From an uncultured Spirochaetaceae bacterium (GTDB lineage Bacteria > Spirochaetota > Spirochaetia > Treponematales > Treponemataceae), in the NCBI GenBank assembly GCA_902766345.1, contig CACXDK010000045.1:1-11420 (forward strand): 11,420 nt of DNA, in the 5' to 3' direction. Of the stretch, positions 2,980 through 9,136 are shown in pieces; position 1 is the stretch's first letter, and each line of letters starts with the position of its first letter. The notes below the pieces were generated by a model. The model had not been told where the DNA came from. It saw only the letters and a program-made list of their open reading frames with translations, and ran no database searches. Position numbers and translations under genes: made by a program.

Positions 2980-4509
2980 ATGAATAAAGTCGAAACACAT
3001 CTTTACATCATTGGAGCTGGATTTGCAGGTCAAATGATTGCAAAAGATTTAATGAGAAAAAAGATATTTGGTACAGTTGCAGCCTTTCTTGATGATAACA
3101 AAGATCTGATCGGTACAAAAATAGACGGAATACCTGTTTTAGGTCCAATAGACCAAGTAGCAGCATTACTTAGAGTAAGTGCTATTGATGAGGCAATCAT
3201 ATCAATACCAAGTGCTAGCGGTGAACGGATAAGAAACATACACAATATTTTAAAAAGCAATGGTTTTTTCAGAATAAAAATTCTGCCGTCTATAAGCCAA
3301 GTAATTGATGGAAAAGCTCACCTTGTACAAACTCGTAATATAAATCCCTTAGACATACTGGGTAGAACCCCTATTATAATTCCACTGCACGAGAGCCTTG
3401 CCTATCTGAAAGGAAAAAGAGTTCTCATAACAGGTGCTGGCGGTTCTATTGGAAGCGAACTTGCAAGACAGTTGCTTTCAGGTGGAAGCGAAAGACTGTA
3501 TCTATTCGGACATGGAGAAAACTCAATAGTTAAAATATACCGAGAACTCCATATTCTGCAAAATGAAGGTGTCGGGGAAAAAGCTTCTGTAGTACCTATC
3601 ATTGGAGACATGAAAGATAGGGAGTATGTAAAATATATCATAAAGAAAACAAGGGCAGATGTTATTTTCCATTGTGCTGCATATAAGCATGTTCCAATGA
3701 TGGAAGAAAATCCTGTCGCAGTTATAGAAAACAATGTTTTAGGAACAAAAAATCTTCTTGACGCAGCATTGGAAAGCGGAACAGAACGATTTGTTCTCAT
3801 ATCAACAGATAAAGCTGTAGATCCTGTAAGTGTATACGGTGTAAGCAAAATGTTGTGTGAAAAACTTATTACCGAATACTCAGCAAAAACATCTCAAAAG
3901 CAGTCATTCATGTTTGTCCGCTTTGGTAACGTACTTGGCTCAAGAGGTTCTATTCTACCAATATTCATGGAGCAAATTCAGAATGGCGGACCTGTCACCG
4001 TTACCGATAAAAACATGGAACGCTATTTTATGACCATTCCAGAAGCTTGTTCTCTTGTATTACAGGCAGGTGGCGTTGGACAAAATGGAGCTTCATATCT
4101 TCTGGACATGGGAGAACCTGTCAAAATTATTGATCTTGCAGAACAAATTATAAGATTCAGTGGTTTTGAACCATACGAAGACATAGACATAAAGTTTATT
4201 GGTGCTAGACGTGGAGAGCGACTAGTAGAACCTTTATGGCTCAAAGAAGAAAATCCTGTACCTACAGATTACAAAAAGCTCCTCAAATTAACAAACATTC
4301 CGTCTAAAACATTTAATTTAGACACACTCATAGAACAAATTCTACCGATCTGTACATTTGATGCTCAAAAACCTGATTTATATAGAAACAAAGAAGTTCT
4401 TGTTTCTATATTACGTCAAGCAGTTCCAACTCTCGATGAATTTTATAAAGAAGAAGAACAATTTGGCAAGCGCACAGATATGGCAACATCAGTAAAGGTG
4501 GTTTTATAA
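2980..4509 (+). CDS. UDP-N-acetylglucosamine 4,6-dehydratase, CapD/FlaA1/PglF family, soluble form
   Basis: Predicted to remove water from UDP-GlcNAc (or a close UDP-sugar), giving a 4-keto-6-deoxy sugar for surface glycans or protein glycosylation. Two nucleotide-binding folds are visible: an N-terminal Rossmann domain (IGAGFAGQ, residues 11-18), then the SDR core with TGAGGSIGSEL (151-161), HCAAYKHVPMMEENP (231-245), STDKA (275-279) and YGVSK (286-290). Long relatives such as WbpM and PglF have four N-terminal membrane helices; these are absent, so the 509-residue protein should be cytosolic. It has Tyr in the YxxxK position where WbpM-type enzymes have Met. It ends one base before the aminotransferase start. 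The start is supported by AGAGGA just upstream. Family call is firm; the exact sugar and the C5 stereochemistry are not determined. Confidence 0.93.
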   Translation: MNKVETHLYIIGAGFAGQMIAKDLMRKKIFGTVAAFLDDNKDLIGTKIDGIPVLGPIDQVAALLRVSAIDEAIISIPSASGERIRNIHNILKSNGFFRIKILPSISQVIDGKAHLVQTRNINPLDILGRTPIIIPLHESLAYLKGKRVLITGAGGSIGSELARQLLSGGSERLYLFGHGENSIVKIYRELHILQNEGVGEKASVVPIIGDMKDREYVKYIIKKTRADVIFHCAAYKHVPMMEENPVAVIENNVLGTKNLLDAALESGTERFVLISTDKAVDPVSVYGVSKMLCEKLITEYSAKTSQKQSFMFVRFGNVLGSRGSILPIFMEQIQNGGPVTVTDKNMERYFMTIPEACSLVLQAGGVGQNGASYLLDMGEPVKIIDLAEQIIRFSGFEPYEDIDIKFIGARRGERLVEPLWLKEENPVPTDYKKLLKLTNIPSKTFNLDTLIEQILPICTFDAQKPDLYRNKEVLVSILRQAVPTLDEFYKEEEQFGKRTDMATSVKVVL

Positions 4510-4510
4510 A

Positions 4511-5695
4511 ATGGCAGATAATACTCTCAAAGTACCCTTTTTTAAGGCATCTATAGGAACGGAAGAAGAAGAAGCTGTGTTAAAAGTTTTACGCAGCGGA
4601 TGGCTTACAACAGGTAAAGAAAATCTAGAATTTGAAAAAGAATTCGCAAAAAAAATAAATGTACCTTATGCCTTAGGTGTAAACAGTAATACAAGTGGCA
4701 TGGTGCTTGCAATGGAAGCCTGCGGAGTAAAGCCAGGAAAAGCTGTAATTACAACTCCATACACATTTGTTTCAACAGCAGCCTGTGCAAGATTGCTTGG
4801 GGCAGATGTATATTTTGCAGACATAGAAGAAAACTCATATTCCATAGATCCTAAATCGATAGAAGCTATATTAAAAAGTGACAAAGGCAAAAATGTCGTT
4901 GCTATAGTTCCAGTCCACATTGCTGGAAATGTATGTAACATGGAAGCTATAATGTCACTGGCAAAACAATACGGAGTAAAAGTCATAGAAGACTGTGCAC
5001 ATTCATTCCCAAGTCCTACAAAACTTGGTTATGCAGGAGCTATTGGAGACATCGGTGTATTTTCATTCTATGTAACTAAAACAATTACCACTGGCGAAGG
5101 CGGAATGGTCACAACAAAAGATGAAGCGCTTGCCAAAAGAATGACAACAATGAGAATGCACGGCATGGACAGAACAACATGGGATCGCTATACATCACCA
5201 AAAGCATCATGGGAATATGACATTATTGCACCAGGATACAAATATAATCTACCGGATATTCTTGCGGCACTGGGACGAGTACAGCTTGCAAAAGCAGATT
5301 TATTCGATAAAAAAAGAAAAGCTCATGTAGAAAAATACAATGCAGCCTTTAAGGATATAGATTTTATAAAACTTCCTCCAACAGGCGAAGGAAACTCCTG
5401 GCATCTTTATCTTATGCGCCTAGACTTGTCAAAACTCACTTGTACAAGAGAACAGTTTGCAAAGGAATTACAAGCTTCTGGAGTTGGAATAAGTGTTCAT
5501 TTTATTCCAGTATTCCATTTTTCTTACTGGAAAGATCTTTATAAAGATTTTGATGCAGAACATTTTCCTCATGCAGAAAAACAATATAATGAAACCATAT
5601 CAATTCCTCTTTGGCCAGATATGACTGACGACATGATTTCTTATGTTATAGAGACAATAAAATCAATAGGAACAAAGTATCATGCCGACAGATAA
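4511..5695 (+). CDS. DegT/DnrJ/EryC1/StrS-family sugar aminotransferase (PLP)
   Basis: Predicted to transfer an amino group, usually from glutamate, to the 4-keto sugar made by the preceding dehydratase, forming a 4-amino-4,6-dideoxy UDP-sugar. The 394-residue length is typical. PLP features: the Schiff-base lysine is K190 in FYVTKTITTGEGG, and D161 in IEDCAHS should pair with the pyridine nitrogen. The substrate-binding start (PFFKASIGTEEEEAVLKVLRSGWLTTG) and the HFIPVFHFSYW segment near residues 333-343 are family hallmarks. AAAGGTGG (4494-4501) is a good ribosome-binding site nine bases from the ATG. The 3' end overlaps the next gene by 14 bases. No acetyltransferase or glycosyltransferase lies in the window to finish the pathway, so the final sugar cannot be named. 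Confidence 0.93.
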   Translation: MADNTLKVPFFKASIGTEEEEAVLKVLRSGWLTTGKENLEFEKEFAKKINVPYALGVNSNTSGMVLAMEACGVKPGKAVITTPYTFVSTAACARLLGADVYFADIEENSYSIDPKSIEAILKSDKGKNVVAIVPVHIAGNVCNMEAIMSLAKQYGVKVIEDCAHSFPSPTKLGYAGAIGDIGVFSFYVTKTITTGEGGMVTTKDEALAKRMTTMRMHGMDRTTWDRYTSPKASWEYDIIAPGYKYNLPDILAALGRVQLAKADLFDKKRKAHVEKYNAAFKDIDFIKLPPTGEGNSWHLYLMRLDLSKLTCTREQFAKELQASGVGISVHFIPVFHFSYWKDLYKDFDAEHFPHAEKQYNETISIPLWPDMTDDMISYVIETIKSIGTKYHADR

Positions 5696-7871
5696 ACTGC
5701 CAGTAACAAAAAAATATTCTTCCCTAAAAAATAGAATCTCAGTAAAAAATGATTTTTACAGTGATATTGCATTTAAGAACATGCTTTATGCAATTACTAT
5801 AAGAAGCCCTATTGATAGAGGAATAATTACATCAATCTTTCAGGAAACAATTCCAGACGGCTATTATCTTTTTACAGCACGTGATGTTCCTGGAAGCAAT
5901 ATGCTTGAAACTCCACAAGGAAAAATCTCCATTTTCAGTGAAGGAAATGTTTCGTACAAAGGGGAACCAATTGGCATTCTTGTAGGACCAGATGAAAGAA
6001 CATTACTGCAGATTCAGCAGTCACTACAGATAAACTATGATACAAATACCATAGAAGACTATATAGAACCGTTGAACGATGAAAAAACAGAGTTGTCATC
6101 TCCATCATCTACAAAAAGAACTCTTGTCAGAGGAAAAGACGCAGAACATATTGAAGATATTTTTTCATCTGCAGAATATGTTGCAGAACATGAATGGACA
6201 TACAATCTAAACACTCCTTATTACCGAGAACCTCAGGGAGCTGTAGCCCATTATGATGGAGAACAGCTTTCTGTATACACCCCGACACAATGGATAGTTA
6301 ATCTTAGAAATGCTCTTTGTAAAACAACATCAATTGATACAGACAACATCATAATAAACAAAACAAAATCTTACGATCACACAACAAATAGCATCTGGTA
6401 TAATACAATTATTTCCTGTCAGGTTGCCGTTGCTGCATATCATACCAAAAGCTATGTCAAATTAATGTACACTAGACAGGAACAGGAAACCTTTATTGAC
6501 TGCATGACTCCTGTACACTTTAACTATAAATCTGCAGCCGATAAAGACGGACATTTACTTGCTGTAAAAGCAGATATTGACCTTGATACAGGCAGCAACA
6601 ATCTTTTTGCAAACGAAATAATTGACAGACTGGTCATTTCTGCCTGCGGTTGCTACAGTGCCCCAAATATCAACATAACAGTTAATGCAAAACATTCCAG
6701 AAAACCACCTCTTTCTATAGATTTACAGCTATTAGATTCCGCATCTTTTTTTGCATCTGAAAATCAGATGAACCTTATGAGTGAAATCATCGGCATTTCT
6801 CCAGCTGAAATCAGAAAAATAAATCTGACAGAAATAAACACAGAAGCAAGCGAAGAAAAAAAAGAAGAACAGCAACAATTGTATCCGTCATTCTTTTTTA
6901 CACCAAAAGCACAGGAAACAATAGACGCATTAATAAATTCAAGCAGCTTCAATAGAAAATATGCAGCATATAAATTAAACAGCCTTGCAAGAATAAGAAA
7001 TGGAGCTCAGGAATTCATAGCATCACCGAATTCTGCCCCACTACGAGGTATTGGTTCTGCATGCGGTTTTGAAGGTTCTTTTTATTACGGTTCAGAACTA
7101 TATGGTTCAGAACAGACACTCGATGTAACTCTTGAAGAAAATGGAACTCTCACAATCCACTGCTCACCAATATCAAAATCCATCCAAGAAATCTGGACAC
7201 ATCTTGCAGCAGACGTATTAGGGCTTCCAGCATCATCTGTAAAAATAAACTCAAACTTTGAAACAGATAATGAACCTCTTTTGCCAGAAAGTGCCCATGC
7301 AAACATAAGCATTTTGACAGGTCTGTTAAAAAAGTGCTGTGAATCCATAAAGCGCAGAAAAGAAGGCTCTGAAATTCCATATACAGTAAAGAAAAAACTT
7401 TCTTCACAGGAAAGAAAAAGCTGGAATACAGAAAACTATACAGGAGAACCATTTCACAGATCATCATTTGCGGTTGCATTTGTCGAAGTAGAATTTGATC
7501 CATGTACTTTCAGGGAAATAATCCGCGAAATAGATATAGTTATTAATGGTGGCAAAATATTAAATTCACAGGCAGCAGAAAACAGTATAAGACTTGGAAT
7601 AGAAAAAGTCTTACGTTCTCTTGTAGAAGATGATTCAATAGAATGTGACAACATAAAAATATCCTTCGTAGCCTCTGATGAAGAACCAGCAGAAATAGGT
7701 AAATTAGTATATCAAGTCATTCCTGCAGCATATACAGAAGCAATTTCTCAGGCTATAGGTAAAGTAATCAATCGCATTCCGATAAAGACAGACACCTTGT
7801 ATAACATCATAAAAACAGAATACAAAGCAGAAACAGAGGAGCAGGAACATGCAGATTCCATTAAATCTTAA
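5682..7871 (+). CDS. Xanthine dehydrogenase-like large subunit lacking molybdenum-site residues
   Basis: Related along its full length (729 residues) to the molybdopterin-binding subunit of the xanthine dehydrogenase/aldehyde oxidase family. Residues 30-120 match the a/b hammerhead domain (LYAITIRSP, FTARDVPGSN, YKGEPIGILV). The AVAAYHTKSYVKLMYTRQEQ segment, RGIGSACGFEG (455-465), AADVLGLP and FVEVEFDP (600-607) also align. The cofactor contacts are gone: the GGGFGGK loop reads KSYDHTT (229-235), the R-G-F-G motif reads SIDLQLL (345-351), the GQG loop reads SKSIQEI (498-504), and the C-terminal GIGE with the catalytic Glu reads EIGK (671-674). There is no frameshift or stop, so it is a maintained gene, not a pseudogene. 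It overlaps the aminotransferase by 14 bases and the 2Fe-2S gene by 23. Hydroxylase activity is unlikely; true role unknown. Confidence 0.88.
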   Translation: MPTDKLPVTKKYSSLKNRISVKNDFYSDIAFKNMLYAITIRSPIDRGIITSIFQETIPDGYYLFTARDVPGSNMLETPQGKISIFSEGNVSYKGEPIGILVGPDERTLLQIQQSLQINYDTNTIEDYIEPLNDEKTELSSPSSTKRTLVRGKDAEHIEDIFSSAEYVAEHEWTYNLNTPYYREPQGAVAHYDGEQLSVYTPTQWIVNLRNALCKTTSIDTDNIIINKTKSYDHTTNSIWYNTIISCQVAVAAYHTKSYVKLMYTRQEQETFIDCMTPVHFNYKSAADKDGHLLAVKADIDLDTGSNNLFANEIIDRLVISACGCYSAPNINITVNAKHSRKPPLSIDLQLLDSASFFASENQMNLMSEIIGISPAEIRKINLTEINTEASEEKKEEQQQLYPSFFFTPKAQETIDALINSSSFNRKYAAYKLNSLARIRNGAQEFIASPNSAPLRGIGSACGFEGSFYYGSELYGSEQTLDVTLEENGTLTIHCSPISKSIQEIWTHLAADVLGLPASSVKINSNFETDNEPLLPESAHANISILTGLLKKCCESIKRRKEGSEIPYTVKKKLSSQERKSWNTENYTGEPFHRSSFAVAFVEVEFDPCTFREIIREIDIVINGGKILNSQAAENSIRLGIEKVLRSLVEDDSIECDNIKISFVASDEEPAEIGKLVYQVIPAAYTEAISQAIGKVINRIPIKTDTLYNIIKTEYKAETEEQEHADSIKS

Positions 7872-8340
7872 TGATGATAAAATTGTTCTTGATGCAGAAG
7901 CTGATGATTCTCTTCTTACAGTATTAAGGCGTGAAAAATATTTTAAAGTCAAATGCGGTTGCGATAAAGGCTTTTGTGGAAACTGTACTGTATTGCTAAA
8001 CGACAAACCTGTATCAAGCTGTAAAATACCAATAAGCCTTGTAAGAAATGAAAATATAGAAACATTAGAATTTTTCAAAAAAAATAATCCTTACTATGCA
8101 GATATACAGTCGGGCTTTAAAGAAGCGGGAATGAATTTATGTGGCTATTGTGAAGCAGGAAAAATATTCACAACATATTGGCTCATAAAAACTTTTCCAC
8201 ACCCAGAACTAAAAAACATACAGAATGCCATAAAACACTTGGACTGTTGCTGTACAGACCGCACTACATTTACAAACGACATACTATATGCAGCCGCTTT
8301 TAATCATGCAAGAATGGAACGTGGTGAAAATGGAAAATAA
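7849..8340 (+). CDS. 2Fe-2S subunit of a xanthine dehydrogenase-like complex
   Basis: A 163-residue two-cluster iron-sulfur protein of the CoxS/XdhC type (small subunit of molybdenum hydroxylases), expected to relay electrons between the large subunit and FAD. The N-terminal plant-type ferredoxin domain has C38, C43, C46 and C58 (CGCDKGFCGNC, then SSC). The C-terminal helical domain has C98 and C101 (LCGYC) and C133 and C135 within LDCCCTD, in place of the usual LCRCTG. All eight ligands are therefore present. The usual CGFCTPGM reads CGYCEAGK, an altered surround of the second cluster. AGAGGAG (7835-7841) sits seven bases before the ATG, inside the end of the large-subunit gene, so the start is well supported. 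The 3' end overlaps the FAD gene. Confidence 0.92.
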   Translation: MQIPLNLNDDKIVLDAEADDSLLTVLRREKYFKVKCGCDKGFCGNCTVLLNDKPVSSCKIPISLVRNENIETLEFFKKNNPYYADIQSGFKEAGMNLCGYCEAGKIFTTYWLIKTFPHPELKNIQNAIKHLDCCCTDRTTFTNDILYAAAFNHARMERGENGK

Positions 8341-9136
8341 AAATCACAACTTTTTAATAGCCAATACAATGTCAGACATTTTTTATCACTTAAAAAATGT
8401 TCAGGACCTGCAGATAATAGGCGGCTGTACAGGTAACGATCCTATAAGCGAACAATGCGCAACAATACGCTATATTCCAGAATTAAAAGTAACAGAAAAA
8501 CATGAACGCTATATAGATTTTGGTCCAGCAGTAACACTTTCCGAAATGCTCAGCCTAGGACAGTCAAACATGCCAACAGTCCTTTACGAAGCACTGGAAT
8601 CCATTGGCTGCTATCAGATACGAAACATAGCAACTCTCGGCGGCAATATATGTACAAAAGGACTAAAGCAGACATTATGGGCACCATTACTGGCACTTGA
8701 TGCACGTCTTGAAGTAAAAAACCAGACCAGCACAAGATACATTCCGTTTACAAAGTTTGAAGGAGTGCCTGAAAATTTTATTTTAACAAGAATAAGAGTT
8801 CCTATAGATGAATGGCAAATAGCCATATTCAAAAGAATAGGTCCTTCATCAAGAATTACACCAGAAAGTGCAGGATTTGTTTTTTTGGTCAACACACAGA
8901 AAAACATGATTGTCGATATAAAGATTGCGTTTGCAGGAAACGGAGTCTTTAAATCTCTTGAACTTGAAAATAAAATAATCGGTGCAAGAGTTCCGCTCGA
9001 AAAAAAATTCATTGACGATTTAATTACCGAAGCGGATATCATCTTTTCAGCACGGTTTGATAGCCCATTAGTAAATCCTATACTAAAGGCACAATTTTTA
9101 AATCTGCTCAAATACTCTCTTGAACAGCTCGCATAA
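8330..9136 (+). CDS. FAD-binding subunit of a xanthine dehydrogenase-like complex
   Basis: A CoxM/XdhB-type flavoprotein subunit, slightly short at 268 residues. The first flavin loop is IIGGCTGNDP (29-38), followed by DFGPAVTLSEML (63-74) and the signature YQIRNIATLGGNIC (95-108), which is fully kept. After it the usual SPxxDxxPxLLALDA reads KGLKQTLWAPLLALDA, so the conserved Asp is lost. The C-terminal CO-dehydrogenase-flavoprotein-like domain runs from about 160. I chose ATG 8330 because homology begins almost at once after it and the overlap is a short 11 bases; an in-frame ATG at 8288 would add 14 residues with no family match and no ribosome-binding site. It is the last gene of the operon. 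Electron output partner unknown. Confidence 0.87.
   Translation: MENKNHNFLIANTMSDIFYHLKNVQDLQIIGGCTGNDPISEQCATIRYIPELKVTEKHERYIDFGPAVTLSEMLSLGQSNMPTVLYEALESIGCYQIRNIATLGGNICTKGLKQTLWAPLLALDARLEVKNQTSTRYIPFTKFEGVPENFILTRIRVPIDEWQIAIFKRIGPSSRITPESAGFVFLVNTQKNMIVDIKIAFAGNGVFKSLELENKIIGARVPLEKKFIDDLITEADIIFSARFDSPLVNPILKAQFLNLLKYSLEQLA

Follow-up and report, generated by a model that had tools for sequence, protein, structure and literature searches.

What becomes of a molybdenum hydroxylase when the loops that hold its cofactor are replaced? The question is raised by an 11,420-nucleotide stretch of DNA from an uncultured Spirochaetaceae bacterium (contig CACXDK010000045.1; the whole stretch is hereafter called the window), in which one gene encodes the large subunit of a complex of the xanthine dehydrogenase type, accompanied by genes for an iron-sulfur (Fe-S) subunit, a flavin adenine dinucleotide (FAD) subunit, a CapD-like nucleotide-sugar dehydratase, and a DegT-family aminotransferase (Table 1). 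An earlier note on this DNA had read the large subunit as one stripped of its cofactor contacts and put to another use. In the analysis described here, the loss of molybdenum was well supported by the sequence together with the gene content of related genomes, and the large subunit is very probably free of the molybdenum cofactor (Moco). A redox role of the complex is likely in view of its retained Fe-S clusters and FAD motif, and its participation in the sugar pathway of CapD and DegT, to which gene order points, is moderately likely. As a whole, the reading toward which we lean is that of a redox complex of ancient origin that works without molybdenum in an amino-sugar pathway.

Fold and cofactor motifs of the large subunit

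The large-subunit frame of 729 codons is open throughout and overlaps the DegT gene by 14 nucleotides and the Fe-S gene by 23. Its product matched the Pfam models MoCoBD_1 (109 bits) and MoCoBD_2 (51.8 bits) above their cut-offs, and the a/b hammerhead model Ald_Xan_dh_C just under it (30.3 bits against 31.3). The best library matches were nicotinate dehydrogenase (3hrd_A, 77 bits), which together with xanthine dehydrogenases headed the sequence matches to solved structures, and, among curated models, the selenium-dependent xanthine dehydrogenase TIGR03311, for which the score of 120.4 bits fell far under the equivalog cut-off of 830.45. Structure prediction yielded the canonical fold, and did so also from a family-only alignment with zero canonical rows, which ruled out an artefact of the few canonical rows in alignment A1. 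By its domains and predicted fold the protein belongs to the molybdenum hydroxylase (xanthine dehydrogenase) family. The structure predictions thus agreed with the earlier claim of a retained fold, and the open reading frame and the alignment to canonical enzymes bore out that four landmarks are replaced within a single intact frame.

Compared with canonical molybdenum hydroxylases (PDB 1dgj, 1jro_B, 1fiq_C, and 3hrd_A), the window protein lacks the family motifs GGGFGGK, RGFG, and GQG as well as the GPYG stretch that precedes the catalytic Glu, and it carries Lys in place of that Glu of GxGE. The replacements that the earlier note had reported for RGFG, GQG, and GxGE (as EIGK) were confirmed by the alignment; that of GGGFGGK likewise stood, but not the letters KSYDHTT given for it, the aligned stretch YDHTTNS lying two residues to the right. 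The statement that all cofactor contacts are lost proved too strong: Gln203, at a conserved canonical Gln position which we take to be Gln767 in bovine numbering, is kept in the window protein, and Gln was found there in 93 of 134 aligned family rows and in 25 of 25 canonical ones. Because a xanthine dehydrogenase fold is here combined with the loss of that family's cofactor motifs, "molybdenum enzyme" is not a fitting name for the complex, and automatic labels like the "xanthine dehydrogenase family protein molybdopterin-binding subunit" carried by protein P0003 are probably wrong as to the cofactor.

Table 1. Coordinates of the genes and large-subunit motifs in the window.
Feature	Position	Strand	Basis
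CapD-like nucleotide-sugar 4,6-dehydratase (Polysacc_synt_2), first of the conserved five-gene cluster	2980..4509	+	Pfam, 369.5 bits; YGVSK motif
DegT/DnrJ/EryC1-family sugar aminotransferase	4511..5695	+	Pfam, 361.4 bits; SFYVTK...TTGEGG, putative pyridoxal 5'-phosphate (PLP) lysine kept
Large subunit, molybdenum-hydroxylase fold (predicted) without cofactor motifs, 729 residues	5682..7871	+	Open reading frame, Pfam, alignment, fold model
Gln203, kept, at the conserved canonical Gln position	6288..6290	+	Alignment
YDHTTNS at the place of canonical GGGFGGK (residues 231-237)	6372..6392	+	Alignment
LQLL at the place of canonical RGFG (residues 348-351)	6723..6734	+	Alignment
SKS (S500) followed by a two-residue gap, at the canonical GQG loop	7173..7181	+	Alignment
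EIGK at the place of canonical GxGE (residues 671-674); Lys674, AAA at 7701-7703, at the catalytic Glu position	7692..7703	+	Alignment, codon
Subunit with 2 x [2Fe-2S], 163 residues	7849..8340	+	Pfam Fer2, Fer2_2; ligand counts
FAD subunit (FAD_binding_5)	8288..9136	+	Pfam, 77.1 bits; motif counts

Distribution and order of the losses

To a protein search of 88 proteins, the window's own included, 81 contributed replaced motifs (one of them, P0065, is partial and lacks the last region) and the remaining 7 were canonical. Scanning genomes with the family alignment turned up at least 423 loci, the best 80 of which were nearly all from Treponema or Spirochaetaceae. Scan loci, further ones from the same family and order as G017 (the T. 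socranskii genome with locus L025), and four proteins of the search made up the 134 family rows, set against 25 canonical rows, and it was in these 134 rows that motifs were read directly. Loci sharing genomes with others (L099, L102, L103, L105, and L106) were removed before counting; L104 and L111, which duplicate L079 and L049, remain in the motif and Fe-S ligand counts (L111 also in the gene-order count), L054 and L066 end at contig ends, and the 30 order-wide loci L123-L152 enter no count. When the whole order was searched by profile, 371 of 390 genomes matched, a figure that also catches canonical enzymes and is not a family frequency; nor is such a frequency derivable from the 33 order genomes taken further, which were chosen mostly for a single match.

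Across these rows the Arg of RGFG was found in 0 of 134 family sequences against 25 of 25 canonical ones, the Gln of GQG in 0 against 23 of 25, and the Phe of GGGFGGK in 3 against 25 of 25, and the GPYG stretch was absent from all 134, two of them being truncated at that point. At the catalytic position, Glu occurred in 70 family rows (24 of 25 canonical) and Lys in 8, the window among them, with no letter in 2; by group, Glu was present in 27 of the 30 basal rows (L153-L182) and in 43 of the other 104. The basal rows also displayed intermediates, namely DGKLWYPS as the first motif, xGFG without its Arg as the second, and a mostly intact GIGE. In a quick tree built with the motif columns removed, a branch with support 100 split 50 of the 134 family rows from 19 of the 25 canonical ones, the placement of L121, which sits on a long branch, being unsure. 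Recurrence of the same motif states across independent genomes ruled out a local artefact or sequencing error, and a single-protein scan of viral contigs, sensitive to close relatives only, found none there.

Judged from these sequences, the loss is old and stepwise, reaching past Treponema into the order. Because 27 of the 30 basal rows retain Glu, the pterin loops were lost first, in a common ancestor, and Glu later in some lineages. The Glu-to-Lys change does not belong to the ancestral loss and is late and local. On this view the complex would have been freed from Moco once, in an ancestor shared by the Treponema family and the sampled members of its order, and then kept.

What now fills the former active site admits two further explanations. 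In the main rival, the large subunit would be a non-catalytic scaffold that merely keeps its two partner subunits, or CapD and DegT, together in a complex and has no working substrate pocket, as might be expected from loops that differ between lineages and from the replacement of the catalytic Glu in 62 of 134 rows (two further rows being cut short). New conservation beside the lost loops, with W204 in 99% and W239 in 91% of family rows, argues against this, and we consider it unlikely. Alternatively, Moco could have been replaced in the same cavity by a different flavin or metal or by an unusual pterin; the replacement motifs that recur in the family, DGKLWYPS in the basal rows and TNSIWYN in many Treponema, are not random letters and would suit such a cofactor. 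No new cluster of metal ligands appeared, however, among the conserved positions listed, where C553 (91%) is the sole newly conserved Cys, and this replacement seems rather improbable.

Selection on the gene

Loss of the catalytic motif is also what a decaying pseudogene would display, and is the sole point in favour of one. The ratio of nonsynonymous to synonymous substitution rates (dN/dS) of the large subunit was 0.039 between the window and L001 and 0.053 between the window and L002, and ranged from 0.033 to 0.16 over the finite family pairs and from 0.056 to 0.080 over canonical pairs from the same bacterial family. These are Nei–Gojobori estimates on stop-to-stop frames; many of the dS values are above 1 and therefore rough, and saturated pairs yielded no estimate. 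The MoCoBD_1 matches listed were long open frames without inner stops, and the gene order described below is conserved. By these ratios, the gene is under strong purifying selection; the expectation that a decayed gene was unlikely held good, and a pseudogene, ruled out by the dN/dS range, retains next to no probability.

Cofactor synthesis in the genomes of relatives

The check for cofactor-synthesis genes that the earlier note had proposed was carried out in the relatives' genomes. Among 50 of the 80 host genomes, profile searches found MoaC in 4, MoeA_N in 3, and MoCoBD_1 in 50. Over 274 genomes of the bacterial family the corresponding counts were 27, 13, and 267, the synthesis genes thus being absent from most, and MoaC occurred in 14 of the 18 genomes with a strong canonical-type match against 13 of the 256 others (Fisher p 4.6e-13). 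Family-only genomes, a set of 249 delimited by the strength of the MoCoBD_1 match (best E weaker than 1e-59) and not by sequence reading, were without MoaC in 236 cases. The MoaC and MoeA counts leave out the basal genomes of L153-L182; many of the named records are metagenome bins, in which single absences mean little, and it is the 274-genome pattern that carries the claim. Neither MoaC nor MoeA_N was found in the named isolates T. socranskii (L025), T. porcinum (L037), T. lecithinolyticum (L056), and Brucepastera (L078). As a side observation, the 14 genomes with canonical molybdenum hydroxylases (e.g., G076, G078, G081, and G082) contained MoaC and gave no MoeA_N match, and the 13 genomes with MoeA_N coincided with the set that has MoaC but no canonical molybdenum hydroxylase.

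These counts bear on the proposal that Moco is still bound, through altered contacts, and is made by an unrecognised pathway. The kept Gln203, the Glu of 70 rows, and the co-occurrence of MoaC and MoeA in 13 family-only genomes would fit it. Against it stand the joint loss of three pterin-loop motifs, the 236 family-only genomes and four named isolates just mentioned, and the isolates C6A8 (L041) and JC4 (L050), which have both MoaC and MoeA_N and show the same loop loss in the large subunit. Since the loss is identical in these two, it is independent of the ability to make Moco, and we regard continued Moco binding as very unlikely.

Fe-S and FAD subunits

Every ligand position of the Fe-S subunit in the window is Cys, with cluster I complete and cluster II reading CCC where CxC is usual, so that the two [2Fe-2S] clusters of the xanthine dehydrogenase family are represented. 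The cluster I cysteines were present in 96 of 97 Fe-S rows and those of cluster II, in either of two positions, in 97 of 97, as CxC in 48 (CCC in 10, window included) and as xCC in 49; the shift from CxC to xCC looks like an Fe-S ligand that moved by one residue in evolution. The FAD subunit of the window keeps ATLGGN and has an altered first FAD motif, GGCT, and ATxGGN was found in 85 of 90 rows, in keeping with a FAD subunit of this family. Its first 53 bases, as listed, lie within the Fe-S gene, and an ATG at 8330, the more usual start, may be the true one. In L026 (10091-11716) and L027 (9071-10597) a single open frame apparently joins the Fe-S subunit to the FAD subunit.

Retention of the partner subunits, supposed in the earlier note, was upheld in nearly all rows by the Fe-S ligands, the FAD motif, and conserved adjacency. 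A pure scaffold would not obviously need such near-complete cysteines and FAD motif, although L121, whose Fe-S subunit has additionally lost the ligands of one cluster, would be at home with one. In the molybdenum-free redox complex that we favour, the trimer would still pass electrons among a substrate pocket, the two [2Fe-2S] clusters, and FAD, and such activity is probable. Of the new uses that the earlier note had proposed, as scaffold, sensor, or non-molybdenum redox protein, the retained ligands and FAD motif speak most for the last.

Gene order and a possible sugar pathway

In the Treponema family the cluster runs CapD, DegT, large subunit, Fe-S subunit, FAD subunit. Where loci had room, DegT adjoined the large subunit in 87 of 88, CapD lay upstream in 66 of 70, and the Fe-S and FAD genes were present in 94 of 95 and 85 of 85, respectively. 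CapD is similar to PseB and DegT to PseC, with scores under the cut-offs of those models, PseC being the closest NCBIfam model for DegT (360.2 bits; cut-off 423.5). The arrangement, which the earlier note had not drawn upon, is the most promising clue to function: it suggests that the genes share a pathway in Treponema, one that may have arisen, or disappeared, in some parts of the order. The trimer would act there on an amino sugar linked to a nucleotide, or on what is made from it, perhaps on the way to a glycan of the nonulosonic-acid type. NeuB, the enzyme that synthesises nonulosonic acids, was found in 269 of 274 genomes of the bacterial family.

More speculatively, the nucleotide of the substrate may sit where molybdopterin cytosine dinucleotide once bound; we hold a sugar nucleotide in the old cofactor cavity to be doubtful. 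Just as tentative is the fuller picture of a molybdenum-free complex whose former pterin cavity binds the CapD/DegT amino sugar, with electrons passing via [2Fe-2S] and FAD, in the making of an unusual sugar of the Treponema surface or flagella. In the available text of PMC9481697, T. denticola flagellins bear a 450.2 Da glycan that is required for filament assembly and motility; its tie to the CapD-DegT cluster is inference only, and the available text of PMC3797959 offered little of use on T. denticola glycans.

Several observations weigh against a molybdenum-free redox complex in a sugar pathway. The retained Gln203 and the Glu of 70 of the 134 rows leave a small chance of a remodelled Moco site, and in the 13 family-only genomes with both MoaC and MoeA Moco may be available. 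The Fe-S subunit of L121 (genome G077, 1.1 Mb) is without all four cluster I cysteines, cluster II being kept, and Fe-S and FAD genes, which adjoin the large subunit in 27 of the 30 basal loci, do not do so in the other 3 (L166, L167, and L178); because of these cases the redox role may not be universal. DegT lies directly upstream in 9 of the 30 basal loci (10 if L155, with its long-running frame, is counted), CapD in 4, and neither in about 16. The sugar link is therefore not universal, and owing to this recount its likelihood was lowered slightly, from fairly to moderately likely, as was that of the reading as a whole, with a small gain for the three main rivals. Adjacency is, moreover, no proof of a common pathway, and a NeuB gene was on the available flanks of only 7 of 62 long loci (two of the seven Pfam-checked), which lends modest support to a sugar role.

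In L166, L167, and L178, DegT and CapD were also not found adjoining; the next gene in L166 matched Pfam SASA (65.5 bits), the sialic acid-specific acetylesterase family.

Comparison with known systems

A DegT-family sugar enzyme beside an Fe-S/FAD electron supplier recalls E1/E3 of cytidine diphosphate (CDP)-ascarylose synthesis, in which a DegT-family 3-dehydrase works with an Fe-S flavin reductase and E1 has His at the position of the PLP lysine. Unlike E1, the window DegT keeps its putative PLP lysine, in SFYVTK, and deoxygenation of the E1/E3 type, with DegT as an Fe-S/pyridoxamine 5'-phosphate 3-dehydrase fed by the trimer, was ruled out because of that lysine.

In contrast to canonical molybdenum hydroxylases, the relatives of the window protein occur mostly in genomes without Moco synthesis and beside CapD-DegT. 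In the former respect they resemble the orphan molybdoproteins of PMC6147048, xanthine oxidase-family homologues without a complete Moco pathway: its available text describes several hundred organisms with a partial molybdenum trait, notably molybdoenzyme homologues lacking the complete pathway, found no sequence feature to tell whether orphan homologues use molybdenum, called for tests, and raised molybdenum-independent forms as one possibility. Whereas no sequence-level feature is given in that text, the family described here carries one that is clear. Neither Treponema nor Spirochaetes figures in the available main text; the supplement may list them. Searches of open-licence PMC papers returned none on quinoline 2-oxidoreductase or TP0080 with Treponema pallidum, or on a molybdenum hydroxylase as pseudoenzyme, and the available text of PMC1949818, matched by Treponema, xanthine dehydrogenase, and molybdopterin, held nothing relevant.

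The family thus offers a sequence signature for a molybdenum-free branch, intermediates that order the losses, and a gene cluster pointing to a new function; the sugar-building genes that usually stand alongside suggest that an old enzyme complex has taken on a new role.

Elsewhere in the window, the minus strand at 602-2323 encodes a 573-residue acidic protein without a Pfam match, whose relatives were present in 45 of the 62 long loci (window included), mostly upstream and on the opposite strand.

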